NCBI RefSeq assembly: GCF_025947225.1
Contig: NZ_CP110005.1
Location: forward strand, 2,108,001-2,172,000
From: Flavobacterium sp. N2270
GTDB lineage: Bacteria; Bacteroidota; Bacteroidia; Flavobacteriales; Flavobacteriaceae
Direction: 5' to 3'
Length of the DNA stretch: 64,000 nucleotides
The notes beneath the pieces were generated by a model that was not told the DNA's origin, did no database searches, and saw nothing but the letters and a program-made list of their open reading frames with translations. Shown here piece by piece: positions 24,055-36,799 of the stretch; positions within the stretch are counted from its first letter, which is position 1, and each line of letters opens with the position of its first letter. The position numbers and the translations under genes are program-made.

Positions 24055-24801
24055 TTAAGTTAACATTCCTCCATCTACATTAATAACTTGTCCGGTTACA
24101 TAAGCACTCATATCTGAAGCTAAGAACACACAAACATTTGCAATATCTTCTGGAGTACCACCTCTTTTTAACGGAATAGATTCTCTCCAACCTTTTACAG
24201 TGTCTTCGTTTAATTTTGCAGTCATTTCAGTTTCAATAAAACCAGGAGCAATAGCGTTTGAACGAATATTTCTAGAGCCTAATTCTAAAGCGATTGATTT
24301 AGTAAAACCAATCATACCTGCTTTAGAAGCTGCATAATTTGCTTGTCCAGCGTTACCCTTCACTCCTACTACACTACTCATATTAATGATAGAGCCTTTA
24401 CGGTTTTTCAACATTATTTTTTGTACTGCTTTAGTCATGTTAAATACCGACTTTAAGTTGATTTCGATAACCGCATCAAAATCTTCCTCGCTCATACGCA
24501 TTAACAAGTTATCTTTTGTAACACCCGCATTATTAATTAAAATATCGATAGTTCCAAATTCAGCAATTACATCATCAATTAATTTTTGAGCTTCGTTGAA
24601 ATCTGCTGCATTTGATTTAAATCCTTTAGCTTTAACACCTAAAGCATTTAATTCATTTTCTAAAGCTGTTGCTGATTCTACAGATGAACTGTATGTAAAT
24701 GCAACATTAGCACCTTGTTGTGCAAAAACTTCTGCAATACCTTTGCCAATACCTCTACTAGCACCAGTAATAATAGCAACTTTACCTTCTAATAATTTCA
24801 T
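24055..24801 (-). CDS. fabG: 3-oxoacyl-[acyl-carrier-protein] reductase
   Basis: A protein of 248 residues, a short-chain dehydrogenase that reduces beta-ketoacyl-ACP with NADPH in fatty acid elongation. The Rossmann motif GASRGIGKG is at 13-21, the NNAG strand at 90-93, and the catalytic triad at S143, Y156 and K160 (NYAASKAG). The C-terminal motif TGQVINVDGGM is typical of FabG. The length matches. It is transcribed divergently from the ECF sigma gene. Confidence 0.95.
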   Translation of the reverse strand: MKLLEGKVAIITGASRGIGKGIAEVFAQQGANVAFTYSSSVESATALENELNALGVKAKGFKSNAADFNEAQKLIDDVIAEFGTIDILINNAGVTKDNLLMRMSEEDFDAVIEINLKSVFNMTKAVQKIMLKNRKGSIINMSSVVGVKGNAGQANYAASKAGMIGFTKSIALELGSRNIRSNAIAPGFIETEMTAKLNEDTVKGWRESIPLKRGGTPEDIANVCVFLASDMSAYVTGQVINVDGGMLT

Positions 24802-24929: not shown

Positions 24930-25478
24930 ATGACGCAAATAAAACGTAATTTTAATTCTGTTTACAACGAATACCATCTTTTGGTATATAATGTTGCGCT
25001 TAATTATGTTCAAAATATTGAAGATGCTGAAGAAATTACTCAGGATGTATTCTTAAAAGTACACGAATCATTATCTGACTTTAAAGAAAACTCATCGCTC
25101 AAAACATGGTTATATCGTATAACTATAAATCAATCTTTAGATTTTATAAAAAAGAAAAACAGTAAAAAAAGATTTTTTATCTTTGGAAAAAAGAGTCAAA
25201 ATGAATTTGAATTAATAAATATTTCCAATTTTGAACATCCTGGAATACTCCTAGAACAACAAGAAGATGCTAAAGTATTGTTTCTAGTAATTAATTCTTT
25301 GCCAGTAAATCAGAAAACGGCATTTATTCTTTCAAAAGTTGATGGATTAAGTAATCCTGAAGTATCTGAAATTATGGAAATAAGTATTTCTGCGGTTGAA
25401 TCTTTAATTTTTAGAGCAAAAAAAGAATTAAAAGAAAAATTATCAAATAAATTTGAAGAATATCGCAAGAATAAATAA
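24930..25478 (+). CDS. ECF-family RNA polymerase sigma factor
   Basis: A protein of 182 residues. Region 2 (about 10-75) includes the polymerase-binding helix EDAEEITQDVFLKVHESL. Region 4 (about 125-175) has the helix-turn-helix LSNPEVSEIMEISISAVESLIFRAKKEL. There is no C-terminal extension. The next genes encode a small single-pass membrane protein and a periplasmic Spy/CnrX-like protein, the partners expected of a metal-responsive ECF such as CnrH. Three identical-spacing promoters nearby (GCAAGAA-N14-CGTCTAAA) carry the CGTC -10 core that ECF factors commonly read. I see no such site before the sigma gene itself. Confidence 0.93.
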   Translation: MTQIKRNFNSVYNEYHLLVYNVALNYVQNIEDAEEITQDVFLKVHESLSDFKENSSLKTWLYRITINQSLDFIKKKNSKKRFFIFGKKSQNEFELINISNFEHPGILLEQQEDAKVLFLVINSLPVNQKTAFILSKVDGLSNPEVSEIMEISISAVESLIFRAKKELKEKLSNKFEEYRKNK

Positions 25479-25493
25479 TTTATTTCGTCTAAA
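25465..25493 (+). promoter_or_regulatory. ECF promoter A (before anti-sigma candidate)
   Basis: GCAAGAA at 25465-25471, 14 nt, CGTCTAAA at 25486-25493. The -35 lies inside the last codons of the sigma gene. The distance from CGTC to the next ATG (25520) is 34 bp. Two more copies with the same spacing and the same distance to an ATG lie at 28005 and 31907, which makes chance unlikely. Confidence 0.8.
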
Positions 25494-25519
25494 ATAATGA
25501 AAGTTAAAACTGAAATACA

Positions 25520-25789
25520 ATGGAAAAAGATAGATGGATTGAAAATGTATTAAATAGTACAAATGGAATTACTAAAGTAAGTCCAAACGATCAATTATTT
25601 TCTAAAATACAGTCAAGAATAAACGATCAAAAACCTGCAGAAACATATGTGAAATGGTTAATTGCAGCATCAATTGTTGTACTTATTTCGTTAAATACAA
25701 CTTATATATTACAAAAAAATTCTACTAACAAACAGAATAATGACAATATTACTTCTTTAGTAAAAACTGCCAATAATCAATTATACTAA
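25520..25789 (+). CDS. Small single-pass membrane protein, candidate anti-sigma factor
   Basis: A protein of 89 residues. A 42-residue N-terminal cytoplasmic part contains an amphipathic segment (SPNDQLFSKIQSRINDQ). It is followed by one membrane helix (about 45-63, WLIAASIVVLISLNTTYIL) and a short Asn-rich periplasmic tail. Size and topology match CnrY-type minimal anti-sigma factors (about 95 residues), and it directly follows the ECF gene. Sequence homology to CnrY is not evident to me. It is preceded by ECF promoter A and followed 5 bp later by the Spy/CnrX-like gene. Confidence 0.75.
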   Translation: MEKDRWIENVLNSTNGITKVSPNDQLFSKIQSRINDQKPAETYVKWLIAASIVVLISLNTTYILQKNSTNKQNNDNITSLVKTANNQLY

Positions 25790-25794
25790 TTAAG

Positions 25795-26274
25795 ATGACA
25801 AAAAGTAAATTATTAACTTTTGCAGTTATAGTCTTGTTTCTTATAAATATTTCTACGTTATCTTTTTTATTTTTTAAAGAACCAAGAACAGATAATAGGC
25901 CTAATCAAAGACCAAGACCTAATCCTAGTGAAGTAGTTATTCACGAATTGGATTTTGACGAGCAACAAATTGAAAAATATAGGGTTTTAATTGAAAAACA
26001 TTCTACTCAAATTAACGATTTAGATCAAAAAATAAATGAAACTAAAAATAAACTTTATTTAGAATTAGCTTCAAATGAAAATAATTCAAAAAAAGATTCT
26101 ATTTTAAATGTATTAAACAACTATAAATCTGAGGTTGAATTGGCTCATTATAATCATTTTTTAGATATTAAAAATCTTTGTAAACCAGAACAATTAAATA
26201 ATTATAATACGTTAATTTTAGAGTTATCAAATATTTTTGCTCCTAAACCTATGCATCATAGAACTAATGATTAA
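25795..26274 (+). CDS. Spy/CnrX-like periplasmic metal-sensor protein
   Basis: A protein of 159 residues. An N-terminal membrane anchor (6-27) is followed by a Pro/Arg linker and a helical hairpin domain starting ELDFDEQQIEKYRVLI, the pattern of the Spy/CpxP/CnrX 'periplasmic heavy metal sensor' group. Possible metal ligands are H50, H69, the HxxH at 118-121 (AHYNHF), C129 and the C-terminal H154-H155. In CnrYXH systems the CnrX dimer binds metal and relays the signal to the anti-sigma factor. The gene overlaps mbnP by 8 bp. The role is inferred from fold and neighbours. Confidence 0.78.
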   Translation: MTKSKLLTFAVIVLFLINISTLSFLFFKEPRTDNRPNQRPRPNPSEVVIHELDFDEQQIEKYRVLIEKHSTQINDLDQKINETKNKLYLELASNENNSKKDSILNVLNNYKSEVELAHYNHFLDIKNLCKPEQLNNYNTLILELSNIFAPKPMHHRTND

Positions 26275-26968
26275 AATTATTTATTCATTAGTTATTATAT
26301 TTTCAATTCAATTAAACGCTCAGCAATCTTCTGATAGTTTATATTTAAATGTTAATGTATTATTTGATGGAAATCCATTACAATTAGATTCTAATTATAT
26401 TTCAAAAACAAAAGACACTTTAAGTTTCTCAACAGTTAAATTCTACTTATCATCAGTTGAATTTCATTTTAGTGATAATTCAACTTATAAAGAAGTAAAG
26501 AGTTATCATTTAATAGATGTTACCAAACCAAAATCCACAGCACTTTCTTTTTCAAAAACTAATTTTAAAGACAAAACACTAAAATCAGTTCAATTTAATA
26601 TTGGTGTGGATAGCTTAATGAGTGTTTCGGGAGCAATGAAAGACGATCTAGATCCAACAAAAGGAATGTATTGGGCTTGGCAAAGTGGTTATATTAATAT
26701 GAAAATTGAAGGAAAAAGCTCGAGTTGTTTAACTCGGAAAAATAAGTTTCAGTTTCATATTGGTGGTTATATATATCCAAACTACGCAATACGAAAAGTT
26801 ATCGTACCATCTATTAATCAAAAAGATAACAACAAAATAGCATTAGCTATGGACTTAGGGAAGTTGTTTTCTAAAATTCAGTTAAAAGAAAATAATACTA
26901 TAATGATTCCTGGGAAAGATGCAATGCAGTTAGCCGATTTAAGTAGTCAAATTTTCTTTATGCAATGA
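26267..26968 (+). CDS. MbnP-family copper-binding protein
   Basis: A frame of 233 residues from the ATG at 26267. The frame opens at 26237, but the later ATG gives a proper signal peptide ending LNAQ at 19 and an 8-bp overlap with the upstream gene. MbnP landmarks are VKFYLSSVEFHF, FNIGVDSLMSVSGAMKDDLDP, GMYWAWQSGYINMKIEG and FQFHIGGY. In characterised MbnPs a Trp is oxidised to kynurenine by MbnH and then helps bind Cu(I). W136 and W138 are the likely candidates, but which is modified is not proven by sequence. It overlaps the MbnH-like gene by 4 bp. Confidence 0.88.
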   Translation: MIKIIYSLVIIFSIQLNAQQSSDSLYLNVNVLFDGNPLQLDSNYISKTKDTLSFSTVKFYLSSVEFHFSDNSTYKEVKSYHLIDVTKPKSTALSFSKTNFKDKTLKSVQFNIGVDSLMSVSGAMKDDLDPTKGMYWAWQSGYINMKIEGKSSSCLTRKNKFQFHIGGYIYPNYAIRKVIVPSINQKDNNKIALAMDLGKLFSKIQLKENNTIMIPGKDAMQLADLSSQIFFMQ

Positions 26969-27996
26969 GAAAAAGTTTTTTATACAGTTGTGTTATATTG
27001 ATAATATGTATTATTTCATTTGGATATGTTTTTTATGACCCTACTCCTATTTATTTAGAAATTCCAAAAAAATGGCCAAAACCTACTTATGATTTTAGCA
27101 AAAATCCATTAACGGAAGAAGGTTTTCAATTGGGTAGAAGTTTATTTTACGATCCTATTATTTCTAGAGATAACACTATTTCATGTGCCAGTTGTCATTT
27201 GCAACAAACAGGTTTTACACATGTAGATCATGATTTAAGCCACGGAATTGAAGGTAAAATAGGAACTAGAAACTCTGCAACTTTAATGAATTTAGCTTGG
27301 AATACTCATTTCATGTGGGATGGAGCTGTAAATCATTTAGAAATACAACCTCTTGCTCCTATTGAAAGTGAAGTTGAAATGGATGAAACGCTAGAAAATA
27401 TTGTCTCTAAGCTTCAACAAAACGAAAAATATGTACAAATGTTTGAAAAAGCATTTGGAACTAAAAAAATTACAGGACAGTTAACTTTAAAAGCCTTAGC
27501 TCAATTTGTAGTAATGCTTAAAACAGATAATTCTAAATACGATAAAGTCATTCGTAAAGAAGCAAATTTTACTACACAAGAGCATAATGGTTATTCTTTA
27601 TTTAAACAACATTGCGCATCTTGTCATCAAGAGCCATTATTTACAAATAATAGTTTTGAAAATAACGGATTAGCTATAGATAGTACGTTAAATGATTTTG
27701 GAAGAATGAAAATTACAAATAATTCAAAAGATAAATTAAAATTTAAAGTACCAACTTTAAGAAATATACAATTTACCTTTCCATACATGCACGATGGTCG
27801 ATTTAATACCTTAACAGAAGTTGTAAAACATTATAATTCTGGAATACATAAAAATGAAACATTAAGTTCTAAATTATTAAAACCAATGAATTTATCCGAT
27901 AATGATAGAGTTGATTTAGTTGCTTTTTTAAAAACGTTAACAGATGAAGAATTTTTATTTAATACAAGGTTTTCTTACCCAAGAGAAAATAATTGA
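26965..27996 (+). CDS. MbnH-like di-haem cytochrome c peroxidase/MauG-family enzyme
   Basis: A protein of 343 residues with an N-terminal membrane/signal segment (about 5-24). Two haem c sites are present: C74-A-S-C77-H78 and C217-A-S-C220-H221. The family segment RNSATLMNLAWNTHFMWDGA surrounds W118, and KVPTLRNIQFTFPYMHDGRF is near the C-terminal haem. MauG/MbnH enzymes use high-valent di-haem chemistry to oxidise protein residues. Pairing with MbnP (4-bp overlap) supports MbnH function over H2O2 detoxification by a classical CcpA. It is located in the periplasm. Confidence 0.9.
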   Translation: MRKSFLYSCVILIICIISFGYVFYDPTPIYLEIPKKWPKPTYDFSKNPLTEEGFQLGRSLFYDPIISRDNTISCASCHLQQTGFTHVDHDLSHGIEGKIGTRNSATLMNLAWNTHFMWDGAVNHLEIQPLAPIESEVEMDETLENIVSKLQQNEKYVQMFEKAFGTKKITGQLTLKALAQFVVMLKTDNSKYDKVIRKEANFTTQEHNGYSLFKQHCASCHQEPLFTNNSFENNGLAIDSTLNDFGRMKITNNSKDKLKFKVPTLRNIQFTFPYMHDGRFNTLTEVVKHYNSGIHKNETLSSKLLKPMNLSDNDRVDLVAFLKTLTDEEFLFNTRFSYPRENN

Positions 27997-28004
27997 GAAG
28001 TTAT

Positions 28005-28033
28005 GCAAGAAATAAAAATTATTGTCGTCTAAA
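28005..28033 (+). promoter_or_regulatory. ECF promoter B (before EF-hand gene)
   Basis: GCAAGAA at 28005-28011, 14 nt, CGTCTAAA at 28026-28033. CGTC is 33 bp before the ATG at 28059. The spacing equals that of promoters A and C, and this supports a start at 28059 rather than at the earlier in-frame ATG at 27993, which would lie upstream of the promoter. Confidence 0.8.
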
Positions 28034-28058
28034 TATTTATAACCAAAAACTTCAAACA

Positions 28059-28337
28059 ATGAAAAAGGTAACATTATTATTTGCACTCATTGCAATCTCT
28101 TTTAACTCTTGTGCTCAAGAAAAAAAAGAAGAACGAAAAATGCCAACAGTAGATGAAATTTTTACTCAAATGGATAGTAATAAAGATAACAAGTTGTCTA
28201 AAAAAGAAATAAAAGGTCCACTTAAAGATGACTTTTCTAAGGTAGACATCAATAAAGATGGCTTTATTAGTAAAGAAGAATTAAAAAAAGCACCAAAACC
28301 AGAAAGAAAAGGTCCGCCAGAAAGACAAGAAAAATAG
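28059..28337 (+). CDS. EF-hand lipoprotein
   Basis: A protein of 92 residues from the ATG at 28059. The N-terminus is a lipoprotein signal with Cys in SFNSCAQE. Two EF-hand loops follow: DSNKDNKLSKKE and DINKDGFISKEE, each with Asp at loop positions 1, 3 and 5 and Glu at 12, so calcium binding is likely. The C-terminus is Lys/Pro-rich. The longer frame from 27993 would add 22 residues with no signal character. It is the first gene after ECF promoter B. The partner is unknown. Confidence 0.85.
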   Translation: MKKVTLLFALIAISFNSCAQEKKEERKMPTVDEIFTQMDSNKDNKLSKKEIKGPLKDDFSKVDINKDGFISKEELKKAPKPERKGPPERQEK

Positions 28338-28363
28338 TATTATTATAACTAAAGTTAATAATC

Positions 28364-29134
28364 ATGAAAAAAATAGTTATGAATATAAAATTAAGTTTCA
28401 TAATAATATTAACTGCTTCCACTAGTTTATTCATTTCTTGTAATAACGATAATGAAAAAGATGAAGTAGTTACTACTGGAACTTTAGATCCAGCTTACGC
28501 CGAATTTGATCCTGACGAAACAGATATTTATTTATATGGTACAAATGTAGTTATTGAAACTACCGGTAGACCAAATCATACAACAACTTATTGGGGAACA
28601 TCACACCCTTTATATTTAAGTGAACCAACTGTACAAATGACTGCAGGTGGAGCAACTTTAATTACAGGTTACGATGCATCAGGTTCATTAACAGTTCCTC
28701 AAAACCCAACTTTTGCGAGTTCAACAACGGCAACTTCATTAAATCATGTTGGAATTGCTGTAAGTGGTGCAGCCATTTTTAATGATTCTGAAGGTAATGG
28801 ACCTTTATCATCAGCTGCAGGAAGTCTTGATTGGTGTGGAGCTCACATTGGCCCATCGGTTTATCATTACCATTTAGAACCTAAAGCTTTTTCTTATGAT
28901 GATGAAAATTTAGTTGGAGTTATTTCTGATGGTTTTTTTATTTATGGAAGAAAATGTCATTCAACTGGAACCTATCCAACTGATTTAGATGCGTCTCACG
29001 GACATACATCTACTACACAACATTCAACTACAGCAAAATATCATTATCATGTTGAAAATGAAGTATATTCTACAACAGGAAGTTATATAGTGTTTAAAGG
29101 TCCATACAAAGGAACACCAAATGCTTTTAACTAG
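28364..29134 (+). CDS. YHYH-domain lipoprotein
   Basis: A protein of 256 residues (a start at Met6 is also possible) with a lipoprotein signal ending LFISCNND. The conserved YHYH domain fills residues about 90-250. It has YHYHLEPKAF near 165 and a second KYHYHVENE near 228, with many His, Asp and Cys in between (DWCGAHIG, GRKCHS). His-rich motifs suggest metal binding. The biochemical function of YHYH proteins is not established to my knowledge. A second YHYH protein lies three genes downstream, and MbnP/MbnH and Sco in the same block point to copper. Confidence 0.85.
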   Translation: MKKIVMNIKLSFIIILTASTSLFISCNNDNEKDEVVTTGTLDPAYAEFDPDETDIYLYGTNVVIETTGRPNHTTTYWGTSHPLYLSEPTVQMTAGGATLITGYDASGSLTVPQNPTFASSTTATSLNHVGIAVSGAAIFNDSEGNGPLSSAAGSLDWCGAHIGPSVYHYHLEPKAFSYDDENLVGVISDGFFIYGRKCHSTGTYPTDLDASHGHTSTTQHSTTAKYHYHVENEVYSTTGSYIVFKGPYKGTPNAFN

Positions 29135-29735
29135 AATAATATATATATCATTTATAATTAGTCTTTTTGGTTGTAATAATAATTCAAATAATAATTCAAA
29201 TAATAATTCTTACAACCAAAAAGATTATTTTTCCATTATTGTACCAAAAGATAATTTAAAATTAAATACTTCAGAGGGAAATTGGTATTATAAAAATATT
29301 CCTTTCACGGGAAAAACGATTGTAAATTATCCAAATAATAAAATTCAAGAGGAAATTCTTTATTTTAAAGGTAAAAAAAATGGAGTTTCATCAAAGTATT
29401 TTATTAATGGAACTATTCAAAAAAAATCATTTTATAAGAATAATCAATTAGATGGAATTGTAAAAACTTGGTGGGAAAATGGCAATTTAGCATCTGAATC
29501 CATTTATAAAAATGGTACTAGAAATGGCATACAAAAATCTTGGCATCCCAATGGACAAATGTCACGATTGAACACTTTAAAAAATGGAATTGAAGAAGGT
29601 CTACAGCAAGCTTGGTTAGATAACGGAAAAATATATGTAAACTGTGAAATGAAAAATGGTAGAACTTTTGGGCTTAAAAGAGCTATTCTTTGTTATGAAT
29701 TAAAAGATGAAAAAGTACAATACGATGAAGAATAA
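29121..29735 (+). CDS. YwqK/MORN-repeat lipoprotein
   Basis: A protein of 204 residues with lipobox LFGCNN (C17), directly followed by NNNSNNNSNNNS from a 12-bp tandem repeat. From about residue 50 there are repeated MORN-like units with the cores GKKNGVSSKYF, NNQLDGIVKTWWENG, NGTRNGIQKSWHPNG and NGIEEGLQQAWLDNG, as in YwqK-family proteins. It overlaps the YHYH gene by 14 bp. Such lipoproteins are widespread in Bacteroidota and poorly understood. The 'antitoxin' label sometimes applied to YwqK has no support here, since no toxin gene is adjacent. Confidence 0.82.
   Translation: MLLTRIIYISFIISLFGCNNNSNNNSNNNSYNQKDYFSIIVPKDNLKLNTSEGNWYYKNIPFTGKTIVNYPNNKIQEEILYFKGKKNGVSSKYFINGTIQKKSFYKNNQLDGIVKTWWENGNLASESIYKNGTRNGIQKSWHPNGQMSRLNTLKNGIEEGLQQAWLDNGKIYVNCEMKNGRTFGLKRAILCYELKDEKVQYDEE
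29163..29223 (+). repeat. Tandem repeat inside a perfect 14-bp inverted repeat
   Basis: CTTTTTGGTTGTAA (29163-29176) pairs perfectly with TTACAACCAAAAAG (29210-29223). The 33-nt loop holds three copies of a 12-bp unit (AATAATAATTCA). The whole hairpin lies within codons 15-35 of the YwqK lipoprotein gene. The unit is a multiple of three, so copy-number change would keep the frame. Confidence 0.75.
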
Positions 29736-30384
29736 TGTTTTAATACTAGTTAGTTTAATTTTATTAATTGGTTGTAAAAAATTAGAACAAGAAAAAGTTC
29801 TTAGTAGAGTTGAAACTTTACCTTTTTATGATGAAGCAACATTTACTCCAAAATGGTTTGCAAATGATAATGATTCTTTAAAATATTTCCATAAAATAGC
29901 AGATTTTAATCTAATTAACCAAGACGGTGAAACCATTTCTAATAAAACATTTTATAACAAAATTTATATCACAGATTTCTTTTTCACTACTTGTCCAGGA
30001 ATTTGTCCAAAAATGACAGCAAGTATGATGGATTTACAAAAGGAATATATAAATGATGATGAAGTAATGCTTCTCTCTCATTCTGTAACTCCAGAAATCG
30101 ATTCTGTTCCAACTTTAAAAGAATATGCCTTAAAGAATGAAATAGTTTCCTCAAAATGGCATTTGGTAACCGGAAATCGTAAAGAAATTTATGATTTAGG
30201 TAGAAAATCTTATTTCGTAGAAGAAGATTTGGGAAAAGAAAAAACAGCTAATGATTTTCTTCATACTGAAAATTTTGTTTTAGTAGATAAGAACAAACAC
30301 ATTAGAGGAATTTATAACGGTCTTAATTCAAATGATATAATTCAATTAATTACTGATGTTAAAACATTAAAAAAAGAAAAATAA
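29725..30384 (+). CDS. Sco-family copper chaperone lipoprotein
   Basis: A protein of 219 residues from the ATG at 29725. The frame begins at 29707, but Met7 gives a compact signal and lipobox LLIGC (C17). The thioredoxin fold has the Sco copper site C-x3-C in TTCPGICPKM, and the distal His is in DFLHTENFVLVD. Sco proteins deliver copper to cytochrome oxidase or act as periplasmic thiol reductases. It overlaps the end of the YwqK gene by 11 bp and sits between two YHYH genes in a probable copper regulon. Confidence 0.92.
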   Translation: MKNNVLILVSLILLIGCKKLEQEKVLSRVETLPFYDEATFTPKWFANDNDSLKYFHKIADFNLINQDGETISNKTFYNKIYITDFFFTTCPGICPKMTASMMDLQKEYINDDEVMLLSHSVTPEIDSVPTLKEYALKNEIVSSKWHLVTGNRKEIYDLGRKSYFVEEDLGKEKTANDFLHTENFVLVDKNKHIRGIYNGLNSNDIIQLITDVKTLKKEK

Positions 30385-30388
30385 TTTT

Positions 30389-31732
30389 ATGAAAAAACAA
30401 TTACTTTGTTTATATATCCTTTTTGCCCTAGGACTAAACGCACAAACAAACCCTGCAATAACGAGTTGGCTCCAAAACACAACAACAACAGGAACTTATT
30501 ACCAATCTGGAAATTCTACTCCAATTTCTAATGGTATTTTAGTAAATTGTCAACAAGTAAGATATGGAACAGATTGGGTGTATATTAATGCAACCGGAAT
30601 CCCAGCTTATCCCACTGGTATTTTTACTGGAGATGGAAACACAAATGTAGCAGGCAATCAAAATGCAATTTACAGGCTTCCATTAAATCCAACTCAAAAT
30701 ACAGGAACTCCTACTGCAACTTCTGCAGGAAATTGTGGAATTTTCATAAATGGTGTTTCATTATTTGATTACCGAGATGGGGTTGCTTGGAATAATTCTA
30801 CAAACGCTTTATGTGGTGGACCAGGTAACCCAACATGCCCAGGTGGACCAGCAGCAACACAAACTTGGAACAGAGATGCAGTACCTGCTGAAAAACTAGG
30901 TTTTGATTGTGCAAAAGGTCATCCAGCTGGTACAAATTATCATCATCATCAAAATCCAAGTGCTTTTAAATATGATAGTACAACTTCTAACTCATATTCT
31001 AATATCTGTAATTTATATGATTCTGAAGGTCTGTATACTATTAATCCATCTCAACATTCTCCATTAATAGGTTATGCTTATGATGGTTTTCCAATTTATG
31101 GCGCTTATGCTTATACAAATACTAATGGTACTGGTGCAATTACAAGAATGAAATCGGGATACCAATTAAGTACGAATACAACAAGAACAAATGGACCTCC
31201 TGTTAATTCAACTTATTTTAATGGTTATTTTAGAGAAGATTATGTATTTGTTTCACATCCTTCAGATCCTACTTATTTAGATGAACACAATGGTAGGTTT
31301 TGCATAACTCCAGAATATCCAGCAGGTATATATTGTTATTTTGCGACAGTAAATGCAGATAATTCATCTGCATATCCATATGTTATTGGACCAACTTACT
31401 ATGGAAATGTAACCGGAGGAAAAGTTACAACAGTACCTACTGGTGTTACTACCTATGTTTTAAATTCAGATGATTTTACTTTAGAAAAAAAGAGTATAAA
31501 AATTTTCCCAAATCCTTCTCAAGATTTTATAACTATTCAAACTGATTTTGTCGAAACAGATTATAAAGTAGAATTAATAAATGAATTAGGACAAGTTATT
31601 AAAAGTTCAAAAATTTTACAGGGAACAACAATGTGCTCAATTGAATTAGATACTGTATACAATGGTGTGTATTTTATTAAAGTAACTTTAAGAGAACATT
31701 CTAAAACTCATAAAATTATAGTAAACAAGTAA
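30389..31732 (+). CDS. YHYH-domain protein with T9SS sorting domain
   Basis: A protein of 447 residues. A signal peptide (1-18, ALGLNAQ) is followed by a YHYH-type domain (about 30-350) with the His cluster NYHHHQNPSAF near 192 and GYAYDGFPIYGAYAY. Several Cys pairs are present (NPTCPGG, FDCAKGHP). The last 80 residues, from IKIFPNPSQDF to KIIVNK, are a type A T9SS sorting domain, so this paralogue is exported beyond the outer membrane while the upstream YHYH protein is a lipoprotein. It ends in a terminator. Confidence 0.88.
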   Translation: MKKQLLCLYILFALGLNAQTNPAITSWLQNTTTTGTYYQSGNSTPISNGILVNCQQVRYGTDWVYINATGIPAYPTGIFTGDGNTNVAGNQNAIYRLPLNPTQNTGTPTATSAGNCGIFINGVSLFDYRDGVAWNNSTNALCGGPGNPTCPGGPAATQTWNRDAVPAEKLGFDCAKGHPAGTNYHHHQNPSAFKYDSTTSNSYSNICNLYDSEGLYTINPSQHSPLIGYAYDGFPIYGAYAYTNTNGTGAITRMKSGYQLSTNTTRTNGPPVNSTYFNGYFREDYVFVSHPSDPTYLDEHNGRFCITPEYPAGIYCYFATVNADNSSAYPYVIGPTYYGNVTGGKVTTVPTGVTTYVLNSDDFTLEKKSIKIFPNPSQDFITIQTDFVETDYKVELINELGQVIKSSKILQGTTMCSIELDTVYNGVYFIKVTLREHSKTHKIIVNK

Positions 31733-31772
31733 TAATAATAAATTAGGATTAGAATTAGTTTAATTAGTTGTG

Positions 31773-31813
31773 AAAAGAGTTTATCAAATATTTTGATTGA
31801 CTCTTTTTTTTTT
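31773..31813 (+). terminator. Intrinsic terminator after the YHYH operon
   Basis: AAAAGAGT (31773-31780) pairs with ACTCTTTT (31800-31807), with additional inner pairing (ATCAAA with TTTGAT), followed by a run of T to 31813. It ends the EF-hand/YHYH/Sco transcript before ECF promoter C. Confidence 0.8.
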
Positions 31814-31906
31814 AAATTAATTCAAACATTAAATACTAAAAATCAACACATTAACTGATAATAAAAAAATAAAAGATTAATGTTATCAAAATATTAAATA
31901 TTTAGC

Positions 31907-31935
31907 GCAAGAATTAAATTAAAGTTTCGTCTAAA
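31907..31935 (+). promoter_or_regulatory. ECF promoter C (before cotH operon)
   Basis: GCAAGAA at 31907-31913, 14 nt, CGTCTAAA at 31928-31935. CGTC is 34 bp before the ATG at 31962. It is identical in layout to promoters A and B and connects the CotH/VTC operon to the ECF regulon. Confidence 0.8.
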
Positions 31936-31961: not shown

Positions 31962-34226
31962 ATGAAAAAAATTACATTATTTCTGTTCTTTTGCGCTAAT
32001 TTATCTTTTGGGCAAACATTTTATGATGAAAATACTATTCAAGATATTAGAATTGTTTTTTCTCAAAGCAACTGGGATGCACTATTAGATGCTGCAGAAG
32101 CATCAGATGCTTATGTCCAAGCTACATCTGTAACCATTAATGGTACTTTAATTGAAAACGTTGGAGTAAAATATAAAGGGAATAGTTCGTATAACGCAAG
32201 TTATAATAAAAACCCTTTTCATATTGAATTAGATACTTATCAAGATCAAGATTATCAAGGTTATACAGATATAAAACTAAATAATGTTATTTATGATCCA
32301 TCATTTGTTAGAGAAACGGTAGCATATAATATTACTAGAAAATATATGCATGCTCCACTATCTAATTATGCTAATGTATATGTAAATGGAACATTAATAG
32401 GGTTGTATACAAATGTTGAATCAATCTCTAAAAAATTTGTAGATAGTCATTTTGGTTCAAAAACAAATGCTTTTTTTAATTGTAGTCCTCCTGCAGGAGC
32501 AGGTCCTTCTACAACTAATTTACCAAATCTTGCATATTTAGGAACTAATAGTACAAGTTATGAATCAGCTTATGAAATGAAATCAGATACGGGTTGGGAT
32601 GATTTAATTAATTTAACTAACACATTAAGTAATAATGTAACAAATATTGAAACAATTTTAGATGTTGATAGAGCTTTATGGATGTTAGCATTAGATAATG
32701 TAATGGTTAACTTAGATAGTTATATTGGACAATTTAAACAAAATTATTATTTGTATAAAGATGATAATGGACGTTTTAATCCTATAAAATGGGACTTTAA
32801 TATGTGTTTTGGAACATTCAATATGACAGGAAGTAGTGGCTCTAGTGGAACTTTAACTACAACTACATCAAAAAGACAGTTATCTCATACTTTACATTCA
32901 ACAGAGTCTAGCTGGCCATTAGTACAAAAATTACTCGCTGTTCCTACTTATAAGAAAAAATACTTAGCGCATTATAAAACGATCTTAACAGAAAATTTTT
33001 CTAACAATAGTTATTATGCAACTGCACAAGCATTTCAAACATTGATTAGTGCTTCAGTTTCAGCAGACCCTAATAAATTTTATACCACTGCGCAATTTAC
33101 AAGTAACATGACAACAGATGTTTCTGTTGGAATGAATACAGCACCAGGTTTAAGTAATTTAATGCCTGGGCGTGTAACCTACTTAAGTGCATTAAGCGAT
33201 TTTACAGCTACACAACCTACTATTTCAAATGTTACAACATCTAATAACAATCCTATGATTGGAAATAATGTTAACTTTAACGCAACAGTTACAAACGTAA
33301 CGGGTAGTTCTGTATATCTAGGATATAGAACTGATGCATTATTACCTTTTAATAAAATTACTTTATATGATGATGGTGCACATAATGATGGTGTTGCTGG
33401 TGATAACATTTATGGTAACTCGATTACAATTTCAAGTGTAACAACTCAATATTATATTTATGGAGAAAATACAACAATTGGAAAATTTTCTCCTGAAAGA
33501 GCAGAACATGAGTATTATACTTTAACGGCCACTTATCCTACTATTACACCTGGTGATTTAGTTGTGAACGAGATTATGGCTCAAAATACAAATACAGTTA
33601 CTGATCCTCATGGAGATTATAGCGATTGGTTTGAGTTATATAACAATTCAACTAACACTATTAGTCTTGATTATTTATATGCTACAGATGATCCAACAAA
33701 TTTATTAAAATGGCAATTTCCCTCAGGACTTACAATAGCGCCAAATAGTTACTTAATTGTATGGGCAGATGAAGATTTAAATCAAGATGGTATCCATGCA
33801 GACTTTAAGTTTTCAGCAGCTGGAGAAAGTTGCATACTTTCTTATTCAGATGGTACAATCGTAGATAGTGTAACATTTGGAGTTCAAACGGCAAATATGG
33901 GTTATGCAAGAATTCCTAATGGAACAGGAAATTTTGTAATACAAGCACCTACTTATAATGCTAATAATGAGTCATTATCTATCTCAAGTGAAGTTTTTAA
34001 TCAATCATTAATTACTTATCCTAACCCAACATCAGGAAATTTAACTATTGAAAATAGTCAATTTAATATTGAAAAAGTGGAAATTTTTAATTTACAAGGC
34101 CAACTTTTATATTCTAATAAATATGAAAATTCTAATTTATTGAATTTAGATTTTTCAAGTTATTCAAACGGAATGTATTTAGTAGTAATCAATTCAAATA
34201 CTAACATAAAAATCATTAAAAACTAA
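31962..34226 (+). CDS. CotH-kinase-family protein with lamin-tail and T9SS domains
   Basis: A protein of 754 residues. It has a signal peptide (1-18, SFGQ) and then a CotH domain (about 25-410) with VGVKYKGNSSYN, the ATP-site-like segment NVESISKKFVDSHFG and PIKWDFNMCF. A beta-sandwich region and a lamin-tail (LTD) domain follow (about 525-655, VVNEIMAQNTN to YARIPNG). The C-terminal T9SS type A sorting domain starts at YPNPTSGN. CotH of Bacillus is an atypical secreted protein kinase; extracellular kinase activity here is an inference. It is the first gene of an operon with a VTC polymerase and DUF4956. Confidence 0.9.
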   Translation: MKKITLFLFFCANLSFGQTFYDENTIQDIRIVFSQSNWDALLDAAEASDAYVQATSVTINGTLIENVGVKYKGNSSYNASYNKNPFHIELDTYQDQDYQGYTDIKLNNVIYDPSFVRETVAYNITRKYMHAPLSNYANVYVNGTLIGLYTNVESISKKFVDSHFGSKTNAFFNCSPPAGAGPSTTNLPNLAYLGTNSTSYESAYEMKSDTGWDDLINLTNTLSNNVTNIETILDVDRALWMLALDNVMVNLDSYIGQFKQNYYLYKDDNGRFNPIKWDFNMCFGTFNMTGSSGSSGTLTTTTSKRQLSHTLHSTESSWPLVQKLLAVPTYKKKYLAHYKTILTENFSNNSYYATAQAFQTLISASVSADPNKFYTTAQFTSNMTTDVSVGMNTAPGLSNLMPGRVTYLSALSDFTATQPTISNVTTSNNNPMIGNNVNFNATVTNVTGSSVYLGYRTDALLPFNKITLYDDGAHNDGVAGDNIYGNSITISSVTTQYYIYGENTTIGKFSPERAEHEYYTLTATYPTITPGDLVVNEIMAQNTNTVTDPHGDYSDWFELYNNSTNTISLDYLYATDDPTNLLKWQFPSGLTIAPNSYLIVWADEDLNQDGIHADFKFSAAGESCILSYSDGTIVDSVTFGVQTANMGYARIPNGTGNFVIQAPTYNANNESLSISSEVFNQSLITYPNPTSGNLTIENSQFNIEKVEIFNLQGQLLYSNKYENSNLLNLDFSSYSNGMYLVVINSNTNIKIIKN

Positions 34227-34231
34227 TTAAA

Positions 34232-34618
34232 ATGAAATACAAAACATTATTACTTATTGCAATAACATCACTTTTATTATCATGTTCAAAAGATGAAGGT
34301 TATGGAGGATTAGCTACAATTACTGGAAAAGTATATGGAAAAGATTATAATTCAAACGGTGTATTAGTTAGTGAAAATTACCTTGGTGGAGCAAAAGTTT
34401 ATATTGGTGTGCACGGAAGTTCAACTCCATTTGATGATATCGATACTTCATATGATGGAACTTTTAGATTTGAATATTTACAAAAAGGAACTTACGACAT
34501 TTGGGTTTTTGGTGATTGTGATTCTTGTAGTTGGGATCAAACCTATGTTTTGCAAACTGTAGAAATTTCTTCAAAAAAATCTTCTGTAACAATGGAAGAT
34601 TTAATAATTACATTTTAA
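34232..34618 (+). CDS. Lipoprotein with carboxypeptidase-regulatory-like fold
   Basis: A protein of 128 residues with lipobox LLLSCSKDE (C18). The mature part reads as one beta-sandwich of the CarboxypepD_reg type: ATITGKVYGKD, a central GGAKVYIG strand, YDGTFRFEYLQKGTYDIWVFG, and a terminal strand. A CDSC pair is near residues 90-93. It lies 5 bp after cotH and 6 bp before the VTC gene, so it belongs to that operon. No enzymatic function is seen; an adhesion or scaffold role is possible. Confidence 0.75.
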   Translation: MKYKTLLLIAITSLLLSCSKDEGYGGLATITGKVYGKDYNSNGVLVSENYLGGAKVYIGVHGSSTPFDDIDTSYDGTFRFEYLQKGTYDIWVFGDCDSCSWDQTYVLQTVEISSKKSSVTMEDLIITF

Positions 34619-34624
34619 TAAAAG

Positions 34625-35374
34625 ATGTTTAATAAATTTAAAAATAACTTAAATTCAATAAGTCCAGTTTCTTTAAGAGAGCTAGACTCTGTTGCATTAC
34701 TTAACAGAGTTGATAGTAAGTATACTTTAACAGAAGAAAATTTAAATAATATTCTTCCATGTTTAGTAAACAACTATAACGTACTTGAAATTGATGGAAT
34801 GAGAGTTTTTACCTATGAAAACAATTATTTTGACACCCCAAATTTATTGTTTTTTAGAGATCATCATAACGGATATGCTAAAAGAATTAAAGTTAGAAGC
34901 AGAAGATATGTAGAGTCTAATCTTTGTTTTTTTGAAATTAAAAAAAAAGAAAAAATATCTAGAACAAACAAATTTAGAGAACGTTTGCCTAATATTCTTT
35001 CTGAAATTAATGCAGATAGAAAAGAAGTAATACAAAGCTTCATTCGTAAAGAAATATCTGACATTAAATTAATTCTAAAAAACAATTTTAGTAGAATTAC
35101 ATTAGTTAATAAAAATTTTACAGAGCGAGTTACGATCGATTTAAACCTACATTTTCAAGATGGTGATCAAGAAGTTAAATTAGATAATGTAGCTATTGTA
35201 GAAGTTAAACAATCTAAGACATCAATTGCATCTCCAATAACAACTTACTTTAAAGAGAATACAATTAGACAACAAAGTATAAGTAAATACATATATGGTG
35301 TAGCATCCTTAATGCCCGAAATCAAAAAAAATAATTTTTTACCCATAATCAAAAAAATAAATAATTTAACCTAA
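34625..35374 (+). CDS. VTC-domain polyphosphate polymerase
   Basis: A protein of 249 residues of the VTC/CYTH triphosphate tunnel fold, the catalytic domain of yeast Vtc4 which makes polyphosphate from ATP. Typical features are LLNRVDSKYTL near the N-terminus, YFDTPNL, the basic strand AKRIKVRSRRY, FFEIKKK, VAIVEVKQSK and the C-terminal QQSISKYIYG. It is cytoplasmic with no membrane segment. It shares a base with the next gene, a DUF4956 membrane protein, which may anchor or export the polymer. Activity is inferred from the fold. Confidence 0.88.
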   Translation: MFNKFKNNLNSISPVSLRELDSVALLNRVDSKYTLTEENLNNILPCLVNNYNVLEIDGMRVFTYENNYFDTPNLLFFRDHHNGYAKRIKVRSRRYVESNLCFFEIKKKEKISRTNKFRERLPNILSEINADRKEVIQSFIRKEISDIKLILKNNFSRITLVNKNFTERVTIDLNLHFQDGDQEVKLDNVAIVEVKQSKTSIASPITTYFKENTIRQQSISKYIYGVASLMPEIKKNNFLPIIKKINNLT

Positions 35375-36015
35375 TGGAAAACGAAGAACTAGTAACATCA
35401 GCATTCAGTATAAGTGATTTTTCAAATAGAGCTTTAATAGATTTTATTGCAATTATTATATTAGTAGGATTCATTTATTATCCAAAACATAAAAACAAAG
35501 ACTTCATTTTTAACTTCGTTTTATTCAACGTTGTTAATTTCATGATTTGTAGTTTGCTTGGAGCAGTAAAAATTAAAATTGGGTTTGCTTTTGGATTGTT
35601 TGCAATGTTTTCAATTATTAGATATAGAACCATTGCAATTTCAATTAAAGATATGGGTTACTTCTTTGGCTGCGTAGCACTTGGAATGATCAACTCGTTA
35701 GCTTCTGTTGAAGATGGTTTTACTTTATTAATCATATGTAACGCTGTAATTCTATTATTAACATTCTTACTTGAACGTTTAGATTTTCTAAAAAACGAAA
35801 ATTCAAAACTAATTGTTTATGATAATGTAGAGTTAATAAAACCAGAAAATAAGTTGTTATTATTAGATGATTTAAAATTTAGAACTGGTTTAAATATTCA
35901 TAAAGTAGAAGTGCTTACAATAGATTATTTAAAAGATGTAGCTCAAATTAAGGCTTATTATTTTTCTAAAGAAAGTTTAAATTTAATTCCAAATTCAACT
36001 GATAATGATGATTAA
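35374..36015 (+). CDS. DUF4956 membrane protein
   Basis: A protein of 213 residues. Four or five membrane segments span about residues 20-150 and include the family signature FSIIRYRTIAISIKDMGYFFGCVALG. The C-terminal 60 residues are cytoplasmic and charged. DUF4956 proteins regularly accompany VTC-domain polymerases in bacteria, and a role as the membrane partner of polyphosphate synthesis has been guessed but not shown to my knowledge. It overlaps the VTC gene by one base and the DUF2490 gene by 11 bp. Confidence 0.88.
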   Translation: MENEELVTSAFSISDFSNRALIDFIAIIILVGFIYYPKHKNKDFIFNFVLFNVVNFMICSLLGAVKIKIGFAFGLFAMFSIIRYRTIAISIKDMGYFFGCVALGMINSLASVEDGFTLLIICNAVILLLTFLLERLDFLKNENSKLIVYDNVELIKPENKLLLLDDLKFRTGLNIHKVEVLTIDYLKDVAQIKAYYFSKESLNLIPNSTDNDD

Positions 36016-36751
36016 TAAGAAAATTATAGGTCTTTTTTTAATTTTCTTTACTTCTGTAATTTATAGTCAAAGTTATACTGATACGCAAGGAAGGTTTATT
36101 TCTTCGGTAGATTATAAAATTACTAAAAAATTAAAAATTTCAGGTGAATATAGATATTCATTACAGAATGATTTTGCCGTGTTTAGATCAAGTGCAGGAG
36201 AAATTGGTTTAAAATACGATTTTACAAAACGATTAAATGTTTTAGGCGGTTATCGATTCACAACTTCTTTTGAAGAAGACAACCATCGTTTTTTTGTTGG
36301 AATTAAATACAATAAAAAATGGAACGACTTTAAAGCGGCTATAACATCAAAATATCAATTTTCTACTAATAGTTTTGATTCGGACTTTATGCAGTATTAT
36401 AAAGAACCCGTTCATATGCTTAGAGAAGAAATAAGTTTAGATTATGATATTCCAAATACGAAAGCTTCAGTATTTATTGCTTCTGAAATATTTTTGAAAA
36501 TGGACAGTCAGCCTTATTTAAAATGGAATAGAATGCGTTATTCAATTGGTGGAGAATACAGATTGAAGTATGGTACCACAGTTGGTCTTTCGGGTTTTTA
36601 TGACGATAAAGTGAATCCGCAAAAAAATGATAGGATTGTACTTGTTACAAAACTGAACGTTTCAATTGATGGTTTTCTTAAAAAGCTAAAAAAGAATAAG
36701 AAGAAAGCGTTGAAAAAGGAAAATGAACAAAATGAAGAAATTGAAGAATAA
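36005..36751 (+). CDS. DUF2490 outer-membrane-barrel-like protein
   Basis: A protein of 248 residues with a signal peptide (about 1-20, VIYSQ). Alternating strands such as SGEYRYSLQNDF, VLGGYRFTTSF and GGEYRLKYGTTVGLSGFY are characteristic of DUF2490, a probable outer-membrane beta-barrel. The C-terminus is unusual: a run rich in Lys then Glu (KKLKKNKKKALKKENEQ) extends past the last strand. It is the last gene of the cotH operon, followed by a strong terminator. A second Met one codon in is an equally good start. Confidence 0.83.
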   Translation: MMINKKIIGLFLIFFTSVIYSQSYTDTQGRFISSVDYKITKKLKISGEYRYSLQNDFAVFRSSAGEIGLKYDFTKRLNVLGGYRFTTSFEEDNHRFFVGIKYNKKWNDFKAAITSKYQFSTNSFDSDFMQYYKEPVHMLREEISLDYDIPNTKASVFIASEIFLKMDSQPYLKWNRMRYSIGGEYRLKYGTTVGLSGFYDDKVNPQKNDRIVLVTKLNVSIDGFLKKLKKNKKKALKKENEQNEEIEE

Positions 36752-36782
36752 AAAAAAGCGAAACATTTGTTTCGCTTTTTTT
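36752..36782. terminator. Bidirectional terminator
   Basis: AAAAAAGCGAAAC, loop ATTT, GTTTCGCTTTTTT: a 13-bp perfect stem with A and T runs on both sides. It serves the DUF2490 gene on the plus strand and sucD on the minus strand. Confidence 0.9.
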
Positions 36783-36799
36783 TATCTGATAGTTTAAGA

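Follow-up and report, generated by a model that had tools for sequence, protein, structure and literature searches.

We analyzed a 64,000-nucleotide (nt) stretch of DNA, hereafter the window, from Flavobacterium sp. N2270 (contig NZ_CP110005.1 of assembly GCF_025947225.1, positions 2,108,001-2,172,000 of a genome of 2,791,361 bases), in which the gene of an extracytoplasmic function (ECF) sigma factor is accompanied by three exact copies of the motif GCAAGAA-N14-CGTCTAAA. Judging from sequence comparison, the three sites are very probably promoters of this one sigma factor, which would be kept at rest by an anti-sigma factor and a sensor and, once released, would start three transcripts. By window position and strand, the locus contains the following features.

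24930-25478, + strand: gene of the ECF sigma factor, 182 amino acids (aa), with Pfam Sigma70_r2 (PF04542) and Sigma70_r4_2 (PF08281) above cut-off
25465-25493, + strand: putative promoter 1, GCAAGAA-N14-CGTCTAAA over the sigma 3' end, ahead of the genes for anti-sigma factor, sensor, MbnP and MbnH
25520-25789, + strand: probable anti-sigma factor, 89 aa, one transmembrane (TM) helix at about residues 46-64 by hydropathy
25795-26274, + strand: probable periplasmic sensor, Spy/Metal_resist-like, N-terminal TM helix by hydropathy
26270-26968, + strand: MbnP family protein, PF20243 at 162.2 bits (cut-off 27)
26965-27996, + strand: MbnH/MauG-like di-haem protein, PF03150 (CCP_MauG) at 191.8 bits (cut-off 25.6), two CxxCH motifs
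28005-28033, + strand: putative promoter 2, directly past the MbnH stop codon, ahead of the EF-hand, YHYH, MORN, Sco and YHYH genes
28059-28337, + strand: EF-hand protein (PF13202 and others)
28364-29134, + strand: YHYH protein 1, PF14240 at 54.4 bits
29121-29735, + strand: MORN-repeat-variant protein (PF07661)
29707-30384, + strand: Sco1/SenC-like protein, PF02630 at 84.7 bits
30389-31732, + strand: YHYH protein 2, PF14240 at 186.2 bits, with a type IX secretion system (T9SS) sorting tail (PF18962)
31772-31808, + strand: probable terminator of the second transcript, hairpin followed by a T run, -13.7 kcal/mol, z -3.86
31907-31935, + strand: putative promoter 3, ahead of the CotH/VTC operon
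31962-34226, + strand: CotH kinase-like protein with lamin-tail domain and T9SS tail (PF08757, PF00932, PF18962)
34232-34618, + strand: 128-aa protein without a Pfam match
34625-35374, + strand: VTC-domain protein, PF09359 at 83.5 bits
35374-36015, + strand: DUF4956 protein (PF16316)
36005-36751, + strand: DUF2490 protein (PF10677)
36747-36786, strand not assigned: terminator-like hairpin that would end the third transcript, listed on the - strand by the scan, with T after the inverted repeat on both strands by eye

The copies starting at 25465, 28005 and 31907 all match the motif exactly on the + strand with a spacer of 14, as a preliminary description of this DNA had reported, with 0 copies expected in 100 dinucleotide shuffles. 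That description had also placed the CGTC core 33-34 bp before an ATG, and we measured 34, 33 and 34 nt to the start codons at 25520, 28059 and 31962. It had further proposed a scan of the complete genome, in which we found the exact motif 3 times, always in this locus, with no site at one mismatch and five at two; three of these five lie within an open reading frame (ORF) and the remaining two have AATCTAAA or CGTTGAAA replacing CGTCTAAA. Only the near-exact form stands out, because allowing up to three mismatches gives 103 motif sites genome-wide versus 157 for the reversed control. When scored with a weight matrix built on 88 sites of other loci (leaving out the window and its two nearest relatives, L123 and L124), the three sites reach 36.9, 36.5 and 33.7, with the next best place in the window at 9.6. 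A chance origin of the motif is ruled out by the shuffles, the genome scan and the matrix scores.

The first site was previously described as lying immediately downstream of the sigma gene; an ECF sigma gene is indeed there, but the site overlaps it, its first 14 nt being the last 14 nt of the gene, stop codon included. The C-terminal Arg-Lys of the sigma factor is encoded by CGC AAG in 57 of the 58 Arg-Lys-ending genes (at least 60% identity, window included). For comparison, CGC accounts for 3.1% of Arg and AAG for 11.5% of Lys in 58 window ORFs, and for 69/272 Arg and 207/1203 Lys elsewhere in the same sigma genes. Since CGC AAG is kept although these are minority codons, the DNA, besides the protein, is constrained at site 1. 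Coding constraint alone is ruled out there by this codon bias in the sigma 3' ends.

Conservation was followed in three sets of loci (40 from the same genus, 80 named relatives and 60 distant ones) that share contigs, so counts are not additive across sets; L190 and L237 are the same contig, present twice. Among 150 genomes of the same genus, 40 have a sigma orthologue (called at E<=1e-30), and the 25 exact motif sites fall in 17 genomes, all of which are among these 40, with 1 match for the reversed-pattern control. A looser pattern gave 47 sites in 27 genomes versus 7 reversed-control sites, and it was present in 24 of the 40 sigma-bearing genomes versus 3 of the 110 genomes without the sigma factor, those three being inside ORFs. 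The named relatives are the best 80 of 257 sigma-protein candidates, the nearest being Flavobacterium sp. LMO8 (L123) at 96%. Together with the window, 70 of them form a Flavobacterium-type set, from which nine distant loci and L195 (contig end) were omitted. With a site defined as [GA]CAAGA, spacers of 11-18 and [CA]GTC, a near-identical site is found at the sigma 3' end in 67 of the 71 loci (66 with spacer 14) and at the MbnH 3' end in 36 of 45 (35 with spacer 14), so the conservation in relatives that the preliminary description had suggested examining is present at both positions. The spacer is 14 in 101 of these 103 sites and 15 in two. As a control, 555 mechanical ends of other ORFs were searched at spacer 14 only, giving 5 matches, some of which are possibly true sites. 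Across the 1.35 Mb of the 80 named loci plus the window, the 98 core sites are without exception in the sense orientation (0 opposite). In a few relatives, L163, L168 and L184 among them, the core at the sigma end is AGTC. Five records of metagenome-assembled genomes titled Rhizobium, Bifidobacterium or Nitrotoga (L131, L137, L141, L152 and L156) carry a Flavobacterium-type locus, and their titles are probably wrong.

The usual gene order is sigma, site, anti-sigma, sensor, MbnP, MbnH, site, then YHYH2, multicopper oxidase or CotH. CotH comes directly first after the site in 10 of the 11 CotH-bearing loci (window, L123, L124, L126, L169-L172, L175 and L189), and the eleventh, L155, has its -35 altered to GCATGAA. 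Genes for VTC, DUF4956 and DUF2490 were observed in no loci other than the window, L123, L124 (truncated past VTC) and G043 (L122). Outside the sigma locus, we inspected two sites in G014 and one each in G021 and G043. One G014 site (L327) and the G021 site (L325) precede sets of three genes that have as nearest relatives, in this order, a T9SS-tailed multicopper oxidase (79-82% identity), a thioredoxin-like protein and a YHYH protein. The second G014 site (L326) is ahead of a 124-aa ORF without a Pfam match, and the G043 site is ahead of a YHYH protein just past the VTC/DUF4956/DUF2490 genes. The grouping of the window genes into one regulon, as put forward in the preliminary description, is supported, although it had left out the MORN-variant protein (29121-29735) and the 128-aa protein (34232-34618); the VTC, DUF4956 and DUF2490 genes are behind promoter 3 in the window, but behind or beside a site in very few loci. 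Flavobacterium very likely has a conserved ECF regulon of this kind, built on two core promoters, with additional promoters serving secreted proteins. As separate observations, the L123 locus gave no match for MbnP, MbnH or Sco and retains the sigma, anti-sigma, sensor and EF-hand genes and the CotH/VTC operon, with sites, and in 13 named loci (e.g. L142:14491-15672) YHYH2 is followed by another, distant MauG-like di-haem gene.

The sigma factor and part of its sites reach well beyond the genus. Of 295 genomes of the class, 64 gave a match to a sigma profile at E<=1e-40, and we examined 60 of the 68 places listed from this class-wide search. Among these 60 distant loci, 25 have, at the sigma or MbnH end, an A-type -35 followed by N14 and CGTC[TA]A, which reads GAAGGA at least once in 23 of the 25 and GAATGA otherwise; 5 of the 60 have the GC-type -35. 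The A-type -35 also occurs in 7 of the nine distant named loci. Sites of the GAAGGA form in the 60 loci (0.44 Mb) are again unidirectional, with 34 sense and 0 opposite. A phylum-wide search with the exact GAAGGAA pattern, uninformative alone, gave 4 sites in 296 genomes versus 12 reversed-control sites. Of the four, one (L205) has relatives of the sigma factor and sensor, another (L203) a MauG-like gene, and two are inside ORFs.

The difference between the two -35 types is matched by the sigma factors themselves. For 103 loci with sites found by a rule that leaves -34 and -32 free, we tabulated both bases against the sigma alignment, omitting loci whose two sites disagree (2 for -34 and 6 for -32). 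Where residue 154 is S or P (68 loci), base -34 is always C, and where it is K, G, R or A (33 loci), the base is always A; base -34 thus tracks this residue in 101/101 usable loci, and residue 154 is the most informative for this base among the 182 sigma columns. For base -32 (97 loci), residue 161 is the best column, though in a tie (see below). In the Flavobacterium-type locus L183, V replaces F161 and -32 is G, with S154 and C-34 kept. Both residues are in the recognition helix and align with G168 and F175 of sigmaE (we applied our own offset of three to convert between the numbering of the chain and that of the paper). Crystal structures provide contacts at equivalent positions: in the sigmaE complex, the contacts to base -34 include one from G168, and F175 is in touch with the T opposite -33; the SigW residue matching F175 touches the bases opposite -32 and -33 (PMC6713349). 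We tentatively propose, as a reading with a little less in its favor than against it, that -35 specificity was switched in evolution, C-34 to A and A-32 to G together with 154 S to K and 161 F to Q/S, within a widespread Bacteroidota ECF system for envelope copper proteins (MbnP/MbnH, multicopper oxidase, Sco, secreted YHYH, CotH) whose sigma factor, in most Flavobacterium loci, would feed back only on its inhibitor, the mRNA of the latter often beginning at the start codon or right beside it. The wording S to K expresses a contrast, the direction of the changes at -34/-32 and 154/161 not being established.

The sigma protein scores 100.5 bits for TIGR02937 (cut-off 42.9), consists of the sigma2 and sigma4 domains only, as group IV (ECF) factors do, and has sigmaE as its top match in the Protein Data Bank (PDB). 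The 89-aa protein has no Pfam or NCBIfam match in family scans, is a member of a conserved family by family alignment, and is probably an anti-sigma factor, based on its position. Members of this family end in a conserved NQLY at the periplasmic end (62 of 72 by a loose pattern), a tail that may perhaps contact the sensor. In the sensor family, 26 of 38 members match PF13801 (Metal_resist) at E<=1, the best at 6.1e-12, and the family profile matches Spy (3oeo) with E 8.3e-4. Two sensor histidines, His69 and His121, are conserved. The window sensor itself scores 11.9 bits for PF13801, under the cut-off of 29.2, and a phmmer search with it alone against the PDB gave no convincing match (best Shroom2, E 0.0069). 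The MbnP and MbnH proteins score under the cut-offs of the corresponding NCBIfam models, with 39.2 bits for TIGR04052 (cut-off 140) and 227.5 for TIGR04039 (cut-off 362.85).

From this arrangement we infer how the system would work. At rest, the sigma factor would presumably be held by the 89-aa membrane anti-sigma factor, and its release would be governed by the periplasmic Spy-like protein encoded beside it. On a signal, the sigma factor would start transcript 1 (anti-sigma, sensor, MbnP, MbnH), transcript 2 (EF-hand, YHYH, MORN, Sco, YHYH) and transcript 3 (CotH, 128-aa protein, VTC, DUF4956, DUF2490). The hairpin at 31772-31808 is missing from the terminator-scan list, as the scan requires more G-C pairs; the scan, which does list the hairpin at 36747-36786, gave 6 sites in the region versus 3.3 in shuffles. 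It listed none on the + strand between MbnH and site 2, so read-through there is possible. ECF transcription usually starts 7-8 nt past CGTC. In 41 of the 67 loci (out of 81) where a site was found together with an ORF of 60 aa or more behind it, the start codon is exactly 13 nt past CGTC, compared with 34 in the window, and in 29 distant loci it is 11-27 nt past, except in two (44 and 49). Given the usual ECF start, a spacing of 13 nt suggests that the anti-sigma mRNAs in many loci would be leaderless or nearly so. This spacing is seen between site and anti-sigma gene in, for example, L125, L145 and L132. We found no site within 250 nt upstream of the window sigma gene, where the best matrix score is -20.8; a few relatives do have one (L175, L191, L188, L127 and L128, and weaker in L186, L192 and L199). 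In L175, from F. gelidilacus, there are sites ahead of the sigma gene, at its 3' end, past MbnH and ahead of CotH. Because the sigma gene is upstream of its first promoter, the active sigma factor would raise anti-sigma and sensor but not itself, making the visible loop one of negative feedback. Positive autoregulation, usual for ECF genes and an early criterion for them (PMC8103513), is not visible in the window.

Several observations weigh against these interpretations. The sigma-end site is missing in 4 of the 71 Flavobacterium-type loci and the MbnH-end site in 9 of the 45, 6 of these nine MbnH ends showing altered -35s (GCACGAA, GGACGAA, GCATGAA, ATAAGAA) with unchanged spacing. By the rule used, 30 of the 60 distant loci have no site at the sigma or MbnH end. 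The three window sites carry CGTC and so contain the CGT expected of ECF -10 elements, but not the AAC of the early -35 criterion, with GCAAGAA here and GAAGGA in distant orthologues; AAC was given as common to the -35s of ECF targets, and the definition was later restricted to sigma2 and sigma4 (PMC8103513). At base -32, residue 161 shares its top rank with column 89, and there are exceptions in L281 and L283 (S with A) and in L190/L237, a single contig (F with G). On a tree with the recognition helix excluded (90 rows: L186 onward minus L195, the window, and every fifth other locus), the joint change of -35 and residue yields 1 independent pair when only well-supported branches are counted and 5 when the best tree is taken as it stands, and the -35 change is largely a clade difference, so the positional match is good over few events. 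With respect to the signal, L160, L163, L165, L177 and L181, among other loci, are without MbnP/MbnH (these five have YHYH1/MORN/Sco in their place), and a 2013 paper states that no data then tied MbnP homologues to copper (PMC3621798).

As for this signal, we consider the copper state of the envelope the likelier answer, and leave the direction of the response open. The recurrent targets behind the sites are MbnP/MbnH/YHYH and, in relatives, also multicopper oxidase; copper is most likely because MbnP/MbnH recur and some of the loci add Sco or a multicopper oxidase, and it is not certain because of the loci without MbnP/MbnH and the 2013 statement. Work by Manesis et al. in 2021 reportedly connected MbnPH with kynurenine formation and copper binding. 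Elsewhere, MbnPH-like genes sit in operons with copper genes (PMC9426467), and in methanotrophs copper lowers the partly similar CorA/CorB genes, MbnP itself being not markedly similar to CorA (PMC3621798). A real regulon that answers to general envelope or protein-folding stress, with the sensor acting like a Spy/CpxP chaperone, is the strongest alternative to copper, though a less likely one. It would accommodate the Spy match of the sensor profile, the lack of a clear CnrX link by hhalign (4.9%, see below) and the loci without MbnP/MbnH, and it would fit less well with targets that are recurrently copper-associated and with the Metal_resist matches in 26 of the 38 sensors.

Alternatives that concern the sites themselves fare worse. 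That they are ECF promoters read mainly by another sigma factor, with the neighboring one a bystander, is improbable: the genome does hold 15 sigma-like candidates at first look, this one included, and the window sigma gene is not itself behind the motif, but all 17 exact-motif genomes carry this sigma orthologue and base -34 follows its residue 154 throughout, though over few independent changes. Slightly more improbable still is a transcription-factor operator or RNA element, as might be imagined from a strongly conserved motif near start codons. The motif has two blocks, a fixed 14-nt AT-rich variable spacer and no palindrome, and its 98 sites share a single orientation, by which an operator or dyad was rejected; with the start codon 13 nt past CGTC in many loci, there would be little room for a transcribed element. 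Recent functionless copies of one another, an idea prompted by the repetition of the same seven plus eight bases at three places in the locus, can be practically dismissed because spacers and flanks differ and relatives keep sites in the same places. Promoters of the adjacent sigma factor, as suggested in the preliminary description, remain the reading best supported, through place, spacing, orientation, co-occurrence with the sigma factor and covariation with its sigma4 helix.

In the E. coli sigmaE (RpoE) promoter, the -10 and the geometry are similar to the CGTCTAA and spacing seen here. Like the sigmaE and B. subtilis SigW promoters, the sites have a -35 with a central A-tract, and the covarying positions recall the recognition-helix contacts of these factors to -34 and to bases opposite -33 or -32 (PMC6713349). 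Unlike them, the -35 is GCAAGAA or GAAGGA rather than GGAACTT or GAAACCT, and the anti-sigma factor matches no Pfam or NCBIfam family.

In plan, the closest described system is CnrYXH (nickel/cobalt, Cupriavidus metallidurans pMOL28), although we do not file the locus as a member. Both combine an ECF sigma factor with a short anti-sigma factor and a periplasmic sensor; the window sigma aligns with CnrH near full length (hhalign 99.1%). The order differs (sigma/anti-sigma/sensor here, cnrY/X/H there), as does the place of the sigma gene, which here is outside the controlled transcript with promoter 1 at its 3' end. The output here is MbnP/MbnH/YHYH/Sco/CotH and others instead of RND efflux, a Pfam scan finding no RND family among the 14 genes behind the window sites. 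Against one sequence each, hhalign gave no clear link, with 4.9% probability (E 0.0081) for sensor and CnrX and 0.3% for anti-sigma and CnrY, which are of similar size (89 and 94 aa). CnrH-dependent promoters precede cnrY and cnrC (PMC9045368); upstream of these genes (L331:23253-23279 and 24627-24653) we noted by eye a shared (A/G)AGGGG 22 nt ahead of CGTA. CnrH has K and G at the places of 154 and 161, which, with a guessed register, would fit A-34 and G-32. A short protein annotated as YHYH domain-containing (L331:22905-23027) adjoins cnrY on pMOL28.

Adjoining mbnP-mbnH pairs also occur in methanobactin and other operons, and are known far beyond methanobactin producers (PMC3621798). In contrast to methanobactin operons, the NCBIfam equivalog cut-offs for MbnP and MbnH are not reached here, and no methanobactin biosynthesis family matched among the scanned genes behind the sites. 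The MbnI/MbnR system likewise has its ECF sigma factor within a group of operons that may contain MbnP/MbnH (PMC3621798), but is FecI/FecR-like and paired with a TonB receptor, whereas here a short anti-sigma without a Pfam match adjoins a Spy-like protein. We found no publication on this locus or combination in the literature searched, which mostly left subscription journals outside its coverage and does not establish novelty in print.

For the biology of these bacteria, the sites would provide a concrete regulatory handle on the MbnP/MbnH pair, the YHYH proteins and CotH/VTC operons, with exact promoters predicted. By activating its inhibitor without activating itself, the sigma factor would be an exception to the positive autoregulation usual for ECF factors. 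Sigma factor and promoters differ in step across Bacteroidota, one residue-base pairing fitting the contacts in crystal structures, and, if the proposed switch is true, these loci would form a natural series of sigma/promoter pairs differing in specificity.

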